Of a stretch of DNA of 64,000 nucleotides, positions 31,324-38,285 are shown piece by piece. The notes under the pieces were generated by a model. It saw only the letters and a list, made by a program, of their open reading frames with translations, was not told the DNA's origin and searched no databases. A program made the translations under genes and the position numbers. The stretch comes from Marinitoga aeolica (GTDB lineage Bacteria; Thermotogota; Thermotogae; Petrotogales; Petrotogaceae): contig NZ_CP069362.1 of assembly GCF_029910535.1 (NCBI RefSeq), positions 310,001 to 374,000 of the forward strand, read 5' to 3'. The number at the start of each line of letters is the position of its first letter. Within the stretch, counting starts at the first letter, position 1.

Positions 31324-31350
31324 GTTTTTGGACATTTGTTTATGTGAAAA

Positions 31351-31454
31351 GCGGAAGCCACCCAGTTGCTTCCCACCTCGGGTAGTTTAGCCGTCAGGGG
31401 TTTTAAGATTAATGGGAAATACTTGGGTGGAGTTTACTCCACCCATTTTAATTT
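31351..31454 (+). promoter_or_regulatory. Structured leader with competing hairpins and terminator upstream of infC
   Basis: A GC-rich stretch between tRNA-Lys and infC. CCACCCA (31358-31364) can pair with TGGGTGG (31424-31430), with an inner stem TTCCCA (31370-31375) / TGGGAA (31413-31418). The same TGGGTGGAG (31424-31432) also forms a perfect 9-bp hairpin with CTCCACCCA (31437-31445) followed by TTTTAATTT, a terminator. Upstream, GGAAGC (31353-31358) can pair with GCTTCC (31368-31373), trapping CCACCCA in its loop. Such three-way competition is the layout of an attenuator controlling IF3-L35-L20 expression. I do not recognise an Rfam family. Confidence 0.6.
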
Positions 31455-31468
31455 ATATATTTATTGTT

Positions 31469-31508: not shown

Positions 31509-32033
31509 ATTAAGAAATCAAAAGATACAACATTGAGAAACGAAGAGATTAGGGTGAAAGAAGTTAGGGTAATAGGAAAAAGTGGTGAACAATTAGGCAT
31601 AATGGAAACGAAAAAAGCTCTACAGATTGCTTATCAAGAAGGACTCGATTTAGTTTTGGTTTCGCCAAACTCTAATCCGCCAGTAGCTAAAATTATGGAT
31701 TTTGGAAAATACAGATACGAAAAAGAGAAGAGAGAAAAAGAAGCGAAAAAGAAACAAAAGAAGCAAATATTAAAAGAAATGAAATTTAGATTACGAATCG
31801 ACGAGCATGATTTTAACACTAAAGTGAGAAGAATTAGAACTTTTTTAGAGGATGGAAATAAGGTAAGAGTTGTGGTAATGTTTTTAGGTAGAGATATTAT
31901 GTTTACAGATAAAGGGAAAGAAATCTTAAATAAAGTTATTAAAAACGTTGAAGATATTGCTGAAGTGACAAGGGCACCTAAAATGGCTGGAAGAGATATG
32001 GATATGATTTTATCACCAAAAAATAAAAAATAA
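31509..32033 (+). CDS. infC: Translation initiation factor IF-3 (AUU start)
   Basis: 174 residues. The sequence KDTTLRNEEIRVKEVRVIG is the IF-3 N-terminus, with VSPNSNPPVAKIMDFGKYRYE and the C-terminal domain (FRLRIDEHDFNTKVRRIRTFL) following. I place the start at ATT 31509: AGGAGGG lies 6 bases before it, while TTG 31533 has no ribosome-binding site and would cut the usual N-terminus. AUU is the classical infC start and lets IF-3, which rejects non-standard starts, limit its own synthesis. Confidence 0.9.
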   Translation: MKKSKDTTLRNEEIRVKEVRVIGKSGEQLGIMETKKALQIAYQEGLDLVLVSPNSNPPVAKIMDFGKYRYEKEKREKEAKKKQKKQILKEMKFRLRIDEHDFNTKVRRIRTFLEDGNKVRVVVMFLGRDIMFTDKGKEILNKVIKNVEDIAEVTRAPKMAGRDMDMILSPKNKK

Positions 32034-32760: not shown

Positions 32761-34008
32761 ATGGCAAAGAGAAAGAAAAAAGAAGAAAGTAACATTGAAA
32801 AGTTAGCAAAGTTAATAGCAAGGGATCCTGAAGTAAATACAATGAAAGATGTATATGATAAGATTAAAGAATTGATGGGACCAATAATACAAGAAATGTT
32901 AGAAGCTGAATTAGAAGATGAGTTAGGGTATGAGAAATACGATAAAGAAAATAAAGAAACAGATAATTCTAGAAATGGATACAGCTCAAAAAAGGTAAGA
33001 TCAAGTATGGGTGAGATGGAATTAAAAATACCCAGAGATAGAAAAGGGGAATATGAACCGAAAATAATACCAAAATATAAAAGAGATATTTCAGATATTG
33101 AAGGTAGAATAATAGGAATGTATGGTTTAGGATTAAGTACGAAAGATATAGCTAAGAATGTAGAAGATATATATGGAGTAGAATTATCAGCTGAAATGAT
33201 AAGTAAAATAACTAATAAGATATTACCCGAAATTAGAGAGTGGCAAAGCAGACCATTAGAAGAGATATATACTTTTGTTTTCATGGATGGAATAGTATTT
33301 AAAGTAAAAGATGATGGTGAAATAATTAAAAAGACTGCATATGTTGTAATAGGAGTAAATATTGATGGATTTAAAGAAGTCCTTGGTATATACATAGGGG
33401 AAATTGAATCATCAAAATTTTGGTTAAGAGTATTGAATGATTTAAAAAATAGAGGAGTTAAGGATATATTAATAGCTTCAGTAGATGGATTAACTGGATT
33501 TCCACAAGCAATTAAAGCTGCATTTCCTGATACTGTAGTACAAAGATGTATAATACATCAAATAAGAAATACATTAAAATATGTTAATTACAAAGATAGA
33601 AAGGAACTTGTAAATGATTTAAAAAAAGTATATAAAGCACCGAATAAAGATATAGCTTATTCAAATCTACAGGATTTAAAAGAAAATAAATGGACAAAAT
33701 ACAAATTAGCATTAGAAAGTTGGGAAAAACACTGGGAAACAATATCGCCATATTTTGATTATGGTGATGATGTAAGAAAAATAATGTACACAACAAATGT
33801 AATAGAATCATTGAATAGACAATATAGAAAAGTGACTAAAAATAAAACTTCATTTCCAAATGATGATGCATTATTAAAAATATTATATTTAGCAACAATA
33901 GATGCAACAAAAAGATGGACAGCTCGATATAGAAACTGGAGTAAAGTCCTAAACGAACTATCCATCTTTTTTAAAGAAAGAATAACAAAATACGTCTATA
34001 ATTCTTAA
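32761..34008 (+). CDS. IS256-family (mutator-like) DDE transposase
   Basis: 415 residues. The family pattern is intact: early ARNGYSSK-like SRNGYSSKKVRS, the first Asp in VFMDGIVFKVKDDG (about 178), the second in ASVDGLTGFPQAIKAAFP (about 240), QRCIIHQIRNTLKYV, and the catalytic Glu in TTNVIESLNRQYRKVTK (about 345). The frame is open from end to end, so the enzyme may be active. Codon use (many AGA, AAA, GAA) is like the host, so the element is adapted or old. Confidence 0.96.
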   Translation: MAKRKKKEESNIEKLAKLIARDPEVNTMKDVYDKIKELMGPIIQEMLEAELEDELGYEKYDKENKETDNSRNGYSSKKVRSSMGEMELKIPRDRKGEYEPKIIPKYKRDISDIEGRIIGMYGLGLSTKDIAKNVEDIYGVELSAEMISKITNKILPEIREWQSRPLEEIYTFVFMDGIVFKVKDDGEIIKKTAYVVIGVNIDGFKEVLGIYIGEIESSKFWLRVLNDLKNRGVKDILIASVDGLTGFPQAIKAAFPDTVVQRCIIHQIRNTLKYVNYKDRKELVNDLKKVYKAPNKDIAYSNLQDLKENKWTKYKLALESWEKHWETISPYFDYGDDVRKIMYTTNVIESLNRQYRKVTKNKTSFPNDDALLKILYLATIDATKRWTARYRNWSKVLNELSIFFKERITKYVYNS

Positions 34009-34289: not shown

Positions 34290-35117
34290 CTACCATTTAA
34301 ATGTATTTATCACACTACTATAAGCTTTATCTATTTTTTCATTTATATCACTTTTAATTTTTTCTAAATCTATTTCTTTTAAATTCCATACATTTGTTTT
34401 TAATACCATTAAAACTGGTTTTTTTATATTCATATCCGGAATTTTGTATGAATCAAATAAATTTATGTTATTTTTTATTATATAAGTTTTCGCTATTTTT
34501 CCTAACTCAATTATTAATGTTTTATTTATTAATTCTGTGTTTTCATATTGTTCTGGAATATCAAAAACTAAATGTACCTCATTTAAAAAATAATATAAAT
34601 AAATCCCTTGAAAATACCATATATTATATGACTTTAAAATAAAATCTAATAACTCATAATCTATATATTTATATAAAGATATATACCTCAAACCTTTTAA
34701 TCTTTCTGATAATACATACTTTTTTATAAGCCCTTCATCACCTTTAATATAGTAACATGGAATTATAAATGGTGATTGATAGATTGACATAGTTGCTGCA
34801 ACATTTACAGTTTTATTATACTTTCTAGCTAATTTGAAGTATTGCCCTTTAAAAAAGTCAATTGTATCATTTTCTATTTTTTGAGGATATAGTGAGCTCA
34901 TATATCTTGAGGGTTTACCTGGTGTTAAAGCAAAAAAAAATCTTTTTTCATTATCAAAAAAAAGATTTAAACTGGGAAATTTATTATTAATATCAAAAAT
35001 AGAAAAGCCTATCAAATGATCGTATTCATCAGCTAATTTACTTTTTTTTTCTTTAAAATATTTTATAGCTATATCTTTTAATTCTTTAACATTATTTAAA
35101 TCATATTCGAATTTCAA
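34290..35117 (-). CDS. Protein of unknown function (275 residues)
   Basis: Start TTG 35117 with AGGTGAGGTGAT upstream, overlapping the stop of the upstream membrane gene. The protein is soluble-looking with no signal peptide and alternating alpha/beta segments (FALTPGKPSRYMSSLYPQKI, LRYISLYKYIDYELLDFIL, LVFDIPEQYENTELI). I do not recognise a family. The stop codon lies in the base duplication at the right end of the IS256 element, so the insertion landed at or beside its 3' end and may have altered its last residues. Confidence 0.7.
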   Translation of the reverse strand: MKFEYDLNNVKELKDIAIKYFKEKKSKLADEYDHLIGFSIFDINNKFPSLNLFFDNEKRFFFALTPGKPSRYMSSLYPQKIENDTIDFFKGQYFKLARKYNKTVNVAATMSIYQSPFIIPCYYIKGDEGLIKKYVLSERLKGLRYISLYKYIDYELLDFILKSYNIWYFQGIYLYYFLNEVHLVFDIPEQYENTELINKTLIIELGKIAKTYIIKNNINLFDSYKIPDMNIKKPVLMVLKTNVWNLKEIDLEKIKSDINEKIDKAYSSVINTFKW

Positions 35118-35126
35118 TATATCACC

Positions 35127-35558
35127 TCACCTGAATATCATATTTATTAGATTCAAAAAATCTGTATAAAGGATTTTTTTTCCATCAGCAGTGTATTCAA
35201 TAGGCTGTATAGTCTTGGTTTTAATGGTTTTTTTTACATCAAAAACTATCTTAAATCTTGCAAATTCGCCAAAATAATATGCATTGCCTTCAAATACAAC
35301 ATTAATTTTACCAAAATTTCTAATACAATACCACTTTGTATTAGAAAAAAATGAATCAAAATATACACCTATTTTTTTATCTGGATAACCATAAAAAGAA
35401 CTCTCTTTTATTGTATTTATACACTCATCATCTGTTAGATTTATCTGAAATAAATCTTTTAGATAAAAAATATATATAAAGGATACTGTTAATATCAGTA
35501 CAAGAGATGAAACTGATAATATTAATATAAAATATTTAAATGACTTTTTTTCGCTAAT
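35127..35558 (-). CDS. Small membrane protein with an AUU start
   Basis: 143 residues. The frame between an in-frame TAA just upstream and TGA at 35127-35129 has no ATG, GTG, TTG or CTG before its membrane segment. GGGGGTGA lies 7 bases (from the GGGGG core) before ATT 35556-35558, the best start; a neighbouring ATT one codon earlier is too close. The product has one membrane segment (FKYFILILSVSSLVLILTVS) and an extracytoplasmic domain with two Cys (TDDECINTI, KWYCIRNFG), possibly a disulfide. It is cotranscribed with the 275-residue gene. Function unknown. Confidence 0.65.
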   Translation of the reverse strand: MSEKKSFKYFILILSVSSLVLILTVSFIYIFYLKDLFQINLTDDECINTIKESSFYGYPDKKIGVYFDSFFSNTKWYCIRNFGKINVVFEGNAYYFGEFARFKIVFDVKKTIKTKTIQPIEYTADGKKILYTDFLNLINMIFR

Positions 35559-35604
35559 AATGTCACCCCCTAATTATTTTTTCTATAATTTATCAAAAAA
35601 TCCC

Positions 35605-35633
35605 TTGAATTATTAACATCATTAAAGTATAAT
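35605..35633 (+). promoter_or_regulatory. Promoter for valS
   Basis: TTGAAT (35605-35610), 17-base spacer, TATAAT (35628-35633), 33 bases before valS. The leader is too short for a T-box. Confidence 0.8.
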
Positions 35634-35666: not shown

Positions 35667-38285
35667 ATGGATATTGGAAAAAGATATACACCAAACGAAA
35701 TTGAAACAAAATGGTATAAATTCTGGATTGATAATGAATTGTTTAAAGCAAAAGGAGAAGGAAATGGAAAATTTTCAATGGTTATACCTCCGCCAAATAT
35801 AACTGGAAAAATACACATGGGACACGCTTTAAATATATCTTTACAGGATATAGTAACACGTTTTAATAGAATGCAAGGGAAAGACACTTTGTGGTTGCCA
35901 GGAGAAGATCATGCTGGTATTGCGACTCAACATGTTGTAGAAAAGTTCTTAATGAAAAGTGAAGGAAAAAGAAAAGAAGATTATGGAAGAGAAGAATTTA
36001 TAGATAGAGTATGGAAATGGGCAAATGAATATAGAGATCATATTAAAAAACAAATAATGGCTATTGGTGCTTCAGTAGATTGGTCAAGAGAAAGATTTAC
36101 TTTAGATGATGGTCTAAATAAAGCTGTTAGAAAAGTTTTTGTTGAATTATATAATGAAGGTTTAATATATAAAGGAAAATATATTGTAAATTGGTGTCCA
36201 AGTTGTGGAACTGTTTTATCCGATGAAGAAGTTGAACACAAAGATGAAAAGGGTGCATTTTATCATATAAAATACCCAATAAAAGGCGAAGATAATTATA
36301 TCATTATTGCTACAACAAGACCTGAAACTATGTTAGGAGATACAGCAATTGCAGTTCATCCATCAGATGAAAGATATAAGGATTATGTTGGCAAAGTTGC
36401 TATTTTACCTCTAGTAGGTAGAGAAATTCCTATTATTGCTGATAAATATGTGGATCCTTCTTTTGGAACAGGTGCGTTAAAAGTTACTCCAGCTCATGAT
36501 CCTAATGATTATTTGATGGGTCAAAGACATAATTTAGAAACTGTTCAAATAATGGACGAATTTGCAAAAATAAATGAAAATGGTGGAAAATATGCTGGTT
36601 TAGATAGAAAAGAAGCCAGAAAAGCCGTAGTAGAAGATTTAGAAAAAGAAGGATATTTAGTTAAAATTGAAGAAATGACACATTCTGTAGGACATTGTTA
36701 TAGATGTAATACAGTTGTTGAACCCTTCTTGTTAGATCAATGGTTTGTAAAAATGAAACCATTGGCAGAAAAAGCCATAGATGCTGTTGAAAAAGCTGAT
36801 ATTAAATTTTATCCTGGTAGATGGAAAAAAGTATATTTAAATTGGATGAATGAAATAAGAGATTGGTGTATTTCCAGACAACTATGGTGGGGTCATAGAA
36901 TTCCTGTATGGTATTGTGATGATTGTGGCCATATAAATGTTTCTGAAGAAGATATACATACATGTCAAAAATGTGGTTCTACAAATATAAGACAGGATGA
37001 AGATGTATTAGATACATGGTTTAGTTCTGCATTATGGCCGTTTTCAACTTTAGGTTGGCCAGAAAATACTGATGATCTCAAAAAATATTATCCTACAGAT
37101 TTACTCGTAACAGGTTTTGATATTATATTCTTCTGGGTAGCAAGAATGATTGTAATGGGTGAAAAATTCATGGAGGATAAACCATTCTCCGATGTATACA
37201 TCCATCAGTTAGTTAGAGATAAATATGGAAGAAAAATGTCAAAATCTTTAGGTAACGGAATTGATCCATTGGAAATTATAGAAAAGTTTGGTGCCGATCC
37301 TATGAGATTCACATTAGCAATATTGGCAGCTCAGGGTAGAGATATAAAACTGGATCCACAAGCGTTTGAATCATATTCTAAATTTGCAAATAAAATCTGG
37401 AATGCCACAAGATTCGTATTGTTAAATATGGATGATTTTGAAAAAATAGACCTTACTCCAGAAATGTTAGAATTAGAAGACAAATGGATGCTGTCAAAAT
37501 TAAATAAAACTATAAACACCGTTACTGATGCTCTTAAAAAATACGAATTTAACATAGCAGCAAGAGCTTTGTATGATTTCTTCTGGAATGAATATTGTGA
37601 TTGGTATATTGAAGCAGTAAAAAATAGATTAAAATCAGAAAATAAAAAAATAGCTCAAAATGTTTTAGTTAGAGTATTGGATTCTTCTTTAAGGTTATTG
37701 CATCCGTTTATGCCATTCTTAACAGAAGAATTATGGCAAAATTTACCACGTATTACTGAAGAAAAATATTTAATAACTGCAAAATGGCCAGAATATATGG
37801 AAGAACATTCATTTATAAAAGAAGAAGAAGAGTTTGAAAAGATAAAAGCATTCATAAGAGGTATTAGAAATGTAAAAGCTGAAATAAACATTCCTCAAAT
37901 TACAAAAGTTGAAGTTGCTTATAAAACATTACGCGATGACAGTTGGATTAAAAACAATCAATCTCTTATTAAAGAATTAGCTTTTGTTACAAAGTTGGAA
38001 ATTGTTGATTCTAAACCGGCCAAGGCTGCTACTTCATATGTTGATGATACAATTGAAGCTTACGTGAAATTAGGGGATTTAATTGATATAGAAGCAGAAA
38101 AAGAAAGATTAAATAAAAAGAAAGAAAAATTAGAAAAAGAATTTATGAAATATGATAAAAAAATAAATAATGCAAACTTCATGGCTAAAGCTCCTGAGGA
38201 TGTTATTGAAGAAGTAAAGGAAAAACATGCATTTGTAAAAAGCCAAATTGAAAAATTAGAAAAATTGCTAGAGGAGTTAAATTAG
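35667..38285 (+). CDS. valS: Valyl-tRNA synthetase
   Basis: 872 residues. HIGH-type PPNITGKIHMGHALNIS (about 44), the editing domain with TTRPETMLGDTAIAVHP (about 220), zinc-type CxxC pairs (CDDCGH, CQKCGS), KMSKS in YGRKMSKSLGNGIDP (about 520), an anticodon-binding domain and a C-terminal coiled-coil arm (about 805-872). It charges tRNA(Val) and clears Thr-tRNA(Val). Start ATG 35667 follows TTAGGAGGTAAAAGT. It heads the valS-folC-ruvA group; folC begins one base after its stop. Confidence 0.97.
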   Translation: MDIGKRYTPNEIETKWYKFWIDNELFKAKGEGNGKFSMVIPPPNITGKIHMGHALNISLQDIVTRFNRMQGKDTLWLPGEDHAGIATQHVVEKFLMKSEGKRKEDYGREEFIDRVWKWANEYRDHIKKQIMAIGASVDWSRERFTLDDGLNKAVRKVFVELYNEGLIYKGKYIVNWCPSCGTVLSDEEVEHKDEKGAFYHIKYPIKGEDNYIIIATTRPETMLGDTAIAVHPSDERYKDYVGKVAILPLVGREIPIIADKYVDPSFGTGALKVTPAHDPNDYLMGQRHNLETVQIMDEFAKINENGGKYAGLDRKEARKAVVEDLEKEGYLVKIEEMTHSVGHCYRCNTVVEPFLLDQWFVKMKPLAEKAIDAVEKADIKFYPGRWKKVYLNWMNEIRDWCISRQLWWGHRIPVWYCDDCGHINVSEEDIHTCQKCGSTNIRQDEDVLDTWFSSALWPFSTLGWPENTDDLKKYYPTDLLVTGFDIIFFWVARMIVMGEKFMEDKPFSDVYIHQLVRDKYGRKMSKSLGNGIDPLEIIEKFGADPMRFTLAILAAQGRDIKLDPQAFESYSKFANKIWNATRFVLLNMDDFEKIDLTPEMLELEDKWMLSKLNKTINTVTDALKKYEFNIAARALYDFFWNEYCDWYIEAVKNRLKSENKKIAQNVLVRVLDSSLRLLHPFMPFLTEELWQNLPRITEEKYLITAKWPEYMEEHSFIKEEEEFEKIKAFIRGIRNVKAEINIPQITKVEVAYKTLRDDSWIKNNQSLIKELAFVTKLEIVDSKPAKAATSYVDDTIEAYVKLGDLIDIEAEKERLNKKKEKLEKEFMKYDKKINNANFMAKAPEDVIEEVKEKHAFVKSQIEKLEKLLEELN

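Follow-up and report, generated by a model that had tools for sequence, protein, structure and literature searches.

The window analysed here, a stretch of 64,000 nucleotides from Marinitoga aeolica (NZ_CP069362.1, positions 310,001 to 374,000), carries on its reverse strand at 35127–35558 a gene for a membrane protein that very probably has a genuine AUU start, replaced by AUC in one related species. The weak codon most likely keeps the output of the gene low, and this output may rise when proofreading by IF3 is weak.

Re-reading of the region bore out the preliminary description as to the frame of 143 codons, its coordinates and strand, and its lack of a standard start. The frame opens past a TAA at 35576–35574, reads TTA GGG GGT GAC ATT ATT AGC GAA AAA AAG and ends at a TGA at 35129–35127. 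ATG, GTG and TTG are all absent from the first 40 codons, and the earliest CTG is codon 21, within the membrane helix. Two neighbouring ATT triplets are found (35561–35559 and 35558–35556), the second of which is at normal spacing and is kept in all relatives. The strong ribosome-binding site that had been described at the correct distance is indeed present: the Shine-Dalgarno sequence GGGGGTGA, in its extended form AGGGGGTGA (35563–35571, reverse strand), lies 4 nt 5' of this second ATT. A scan of the 64 kb looked for frames in which the best Shine-Dalgarno sequence stands before a non-standard codon. With frames inside other genes set aside, only infC and the membrane gene join a strong Shine-Dalgarno sequence and a non-standard start to a genuine coding frame. 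RNA structure that might mask the AUU was also sought in the leader, where nothing notable was detected (z 0.31), and this idea was rejected. The leader itself (35574–35625, reverse strand) is strongly conserved in the alignment of seven species and is likely to hold the promoter, with TTATAGAA as a candidate −10 element. Part of this conservation is due to the opposite strand, where the leader overlaps the promoter of the divergent valS gene (TTGAAT-17-TATAAT, 35605–35633, forward strand).

An orthologue of the membrane gene is found in all seven of the Marinitoga genomes examined (G000–G006), with identities of 59–100%. The dN/dS values of 0.10–0.36 across all pairs place it under purifying selection. 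The start codon is ATT in six of the species, ATC in one (G002) and ATA in none, counts which are not independent as the species are related. At the seven invariant internal Ile columns of the same gene, the codons are ATA 34 times, ATT 12 times and ATC 3 times; being never ATA, the start position behaves like an initiation codon rather than like an Ile codon within the frame. The GGTGA core of the Shine-Dalgarno sequence is kept in all seven species and is followed by a spacer of 4 nt in G000, G001, G002 and G006 and of 5 nt in G003, G004 and G005. Since the spacer varies by 1 nt between species, it is the distance from the Shine-Dalgarno sequence to the ATT that is conserved and not the frame upstream. 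AUH (AUU, AUC or AUA) is thus conserved at a constant position with respect to the ribosome-binding site, and the earlier assignment of AUU as the start codon is backed by the comparison across species.

The gene is tightly coupled to its downstream neighbour, as had been proposed. This neighbour (34290–35117, reverse strand) matches DUF4895 (PF16236) at 26.3 bits against a gathering cut-off of 25; its TTG start lies 9 nt past the stop of the membrane gene, which falls inside the DUF4895 gene's Shine-Dalgarno sequence. On the other side, valS (35667–38285, forward strand) adjoins the membrane gene in 7/7 genomes. The order infC-rpmI-rplT, then the convergent pair of DUF4895 and membrane genes, then the divergent valS is the same throughout the seven genomes, except that the DUF4895 gene, present in six of the species, is absent in G002. 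Both valS and the DUF4895 gene are broken up into several frames or pieces in the assembly of M. lauensis, probably by assembly indels. The proximity to infC (31509–32033, forward strand) noted in the preliminary description is therefore real and kept in every genome, but a diffusible factor does not require it. The gap of 3.6 kb seen in the window is due to the insertion of a Mutator-family transposase gene (32761–34008) between rplT and the DUF4895 gene, which is absent from this place in the other six genomes. A likely L20 leader lies ahead of infC-rpmI-rplT at 31343–31456 (41.9 bits, below the gathering score of 58.7).

The predicted product has a single-pass anchor, with the helix at about residues 9–32, followed by an extracytoplasmic domain, some 100 residues long, whose sequence pattern is FYGYPDKKIGxYFDxFFxNxxW...VVFEG...FKIxFD. 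A structure model of low confidence (pLDDT 65.6) has a helix at residues 2–37 and then an alpha-beta4-alpha domain. The fold search with this low-confidence model gave no match with E below 0.001, and there were weak hints of cystatin-like and NTF2-like folds. Among solved structures, tryptophanase matched the sequence best (E 0.0054), a hit that we do not believe. No Pfam or NCBIfam family matched the protein up to E = 1. In a different family of the order, the domain occurs in three tandem copies in secreted proteins that have ordinary starts; these three-domain homologues matched no Pfam or NCBIfam family either. The product thus appears to be a membrane-anchored extracytoplasmic module, and it may act together with the DUF4895 protein.

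AUH starts with an extended Shine-Dalgarno sequence are a small class in the heat-loving genus Marinitoga, as seen from a genome survey made up of pattern searches and the reading of selected stretches. We searched the genome for GGNGGTGA followed by 3–6 nt and ATH, and read the matches in context. With identical strict Shine-Dalgarno criteria and frames of at least 100 codons, nine ATH frames were found genome-wide against one for the control TTH, where nine is an upper figure because several of these frames have other possible starts. A second Shine-Dalgarno pattern added infC and no further convincing gene among the 30 of its 81 sites that were read, and a third added cheB and a holB-like gene. 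The infC start is ATT in 7/7 Marinitoga genomes, following an invariant AGGAGGGATAAGT (the base preceding which varies), and the aligned position is ATA in 14 genomes of the family's other genera, most of which have no standard start there. The gene encodes an IF3 with both domains (IF3_N and IF3_C), so that the fidelity factor is itself AUU-started. Compared with E. coli IF3, the Marinitoga protein has Arg replaced at positions 116 and 131 of the C-domain and often differs at 147 (Lys; numbering of the PDB alignment); an effect of these changes on start-codon proofreading is possible.

Other genes of the genus have AUH in some species and AUG or UUG in others, with the start position unchanged. 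In a HAD-hydrolase gene (G000 C1:2080752–2081369, reverse strand), four species have ATT and two others have ATG in exactly the same place. For a TetR gene (G000 C1:1044768–1045358, reverse strand), the start is ATT in four species and ATA, ATC and TTG in one species each, at one position and constant Shine-Dalgarno spacing; 5' of its start is the palindrome TCGAACGTTCG, which may be its own operator. A polysaccharide flippase starts at ATA in the single genome that was read, where no other start is available. The AUH codons of cheB and the holB-like gene are ambiguous, the 5-nt spacer putting the GTG of the Shine-Dalgarno sequence in frame, and the two were not accepted as firm members of the class. 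Similarly, for a 293-codon frame behind GGAGGTGATTAAATTA (G000 C1:229966–229980, reverse strand), the sole upstream in-frame standard codon is the Shine-Dalgarno GTG. Candidates resembling DUF47/PhoU and hydE (family names assigned by eye) were rejected for an available in-frame ATG, and a transposase-like candidate with ATG or TTG in frame upstream was not counted.

How such a start might work can be outlined from known systems. The extended Shine-Dalgarno sequence would hold the 30S subunit so that AUU sits in the P site and meets fMet-tRNA; initiation there would be weak and subject to proofreading by IF3. The weak codon would most likely keep the membrane protein low and, in part, the coupled DUF4895 protein as well, and output may climb when IF3 is scarce or its proofreading is weak, as it does for infC. 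For the membrane gene, we infer initiation by fMet-tRNA, low output and dependence on IF3; the preliminary description's proposal that expression occurs mainly at low IF3 is plausible by analogy. A competing explanation, to which we give not quite an even chance, is that AUU is simply a weak start by which a protein that does harm in excess is held at a constant low level, some 10% of that from AUG, with IF3 conveying no signal. Precedent comes from Staphylococcus aureus, where AUU and AUA starts occur with extended Shine-Dalgarno sequences and give about 10% of AUG expression, and where the AUU of cvfC1 acts without an effect of medium (PMC13009471). The interchange of AUH with AUG or UUG in the HAD and TetR genes also fits a loose tuning of output; orthologues that switch in this way indicate that AUH is not always needed. 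Against this, in all seven species, AUG, GUG and UUG never occupy the start position of the membrane gene, which in this respect is like infC and unlike the HAD and TetR genes. An IF3-responsive step and a constant low output without IF3 signalling are about as likely as each other. The wider proposal, that the fidelity or level of IF3 co-tunes infC, the membrane gene with its DUF4895 partner, the TetR, HAD and flippase genes and possibly cheB and holB through AUU, AUA or AUC with an extended Shine-Dalgarno sequence, we consider rather unlikely.

Whichever way output is set, the AUU reading must be weighed against a start at a standard codon, either the GTG embedded in the Shine-Dalgarno sequence or another codon upstream or downstream. 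Such codons do exist in single species: the Shine-Dalgarno GTG is in frame in G003 and G005, G006 has an in-frame ATG 5' of the Shine-Dalgarno sequence and, five codons downstream of the start, a TTG occurs in G002. Taken by themselves, these four copies would therefore be no proof of an AUH start. The remaining three, G000, G001 and G004, are without any in-frame ATG, GTG or TTG before the end of the helix and contradict a standard start; in G004, a TAA stands immediately 5' of the ATT and the frame begins at the ATT itself. None of the alternative codons is common to all seven species, and we regard a standard start as very improbable. The relatives, to which the preliminary description had pointed as a place where a standard start might come to light, thus leave the AUU start standing. 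That a sequencing error or decay of the gene has cost a base and hidden a standard start is more improbable still: although the M. lauensis assembly does have frameshifts in neighbouring genes, the same state is found in seven independent genomes and under purifying selection, and their agreement, together with the TAA before the ATT in G004, excludes the sequencing error that the preliminary description had named as a possible objection. A start at the Shine-Dalgarno GTG in another frame, with the main frame then reached by frameshifting on the A-rich run, can be drawn for G000 (GTG ACA TTA TTA GCG AAA AAA AGT) but is scarcely credible, given that the GTG frame differs across species and meets a stop two codons on in G004, and that the A run is not conserved.

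The AUU start of the membrane gene therefore withstands these comparisons. To our knowledge, well-supported AUU starts are very rare among bacterial genes other than infC. No report on Marinitoga start codons came up in the literature searched. The AUU starts of infC, pcnB, Borrelia pncA and S. aureus cvfC1 are already known; what is new is a genus that has several AUH genes and in whose sister species AUU and AUG replace each other at a single position. The occurrence of AUU or AUC throughout the genus, together with the sharing of one position by AUU and AUG, is direct evolutionary evidence for AUH starts. It also points to a systematic gap in gene calling, in which AUH-started frames are missed or wrongly trimmed, and supports the earlier expectation that callers restricted to ATG, GTG and TTG are likely to miss or mis-start the membrane gene. 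The question of a set of IF3-controlled genes beyond infC becomes directly testable in one genus.

Comparison with the known cases shows that AUU starts are, as the preliminary description held, very rare, but that their near-restriction to infC and pcnB was too strong a statement in view of the demonstrated AUU starts of cvfC1 and Borrelia pncA and of the further Marinitoga genes. The closest likeness is to infC of E. coli, Bacillus and Marinitoga, which shares the conserved AUU, the strong Shine-Dalgarno sequence and the absence of a standard start at the site; infC encodes the fidelity factor itself and is autoregulated, whereas the membrane gene could be no more than a target. AUU is likewise the start codon of pcnB in E. 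coli and of pncA (bbe22) in Borrelia burgdorferi, the latter mis-annotated by databases or gene callers (PMC1780047, PMC13398362), but these genes encode unrelated proteins, and the evidence for the Marinitoga start is comparative. In S. aureus, cvfC1 (AUU) and ccpN (AUA) resemble the membrane gene in their conserved AUH codon and in an extended Shine-Dalgarno sequence close to it, and cvfC1 is also the first gene of a small operon; they differ in belonging to another phylum, in encoding unrelated proteins and in that their starts have been demonstrated experimentally, by Ribo-Ret and reporters (PMC13009471). Finally, sigR of Streptomyces, where IF3 represses the GUC start of a gene in a coupled pair (PMC5472188), is like the proposed mechanism in that the upstream gene of such a pair has its output limited by a non-canonical start, although the codon there is GUC and not AUU, and the dependence on IF3 that has been shown in Streptomyces is proposed for the Marinitoga gene.
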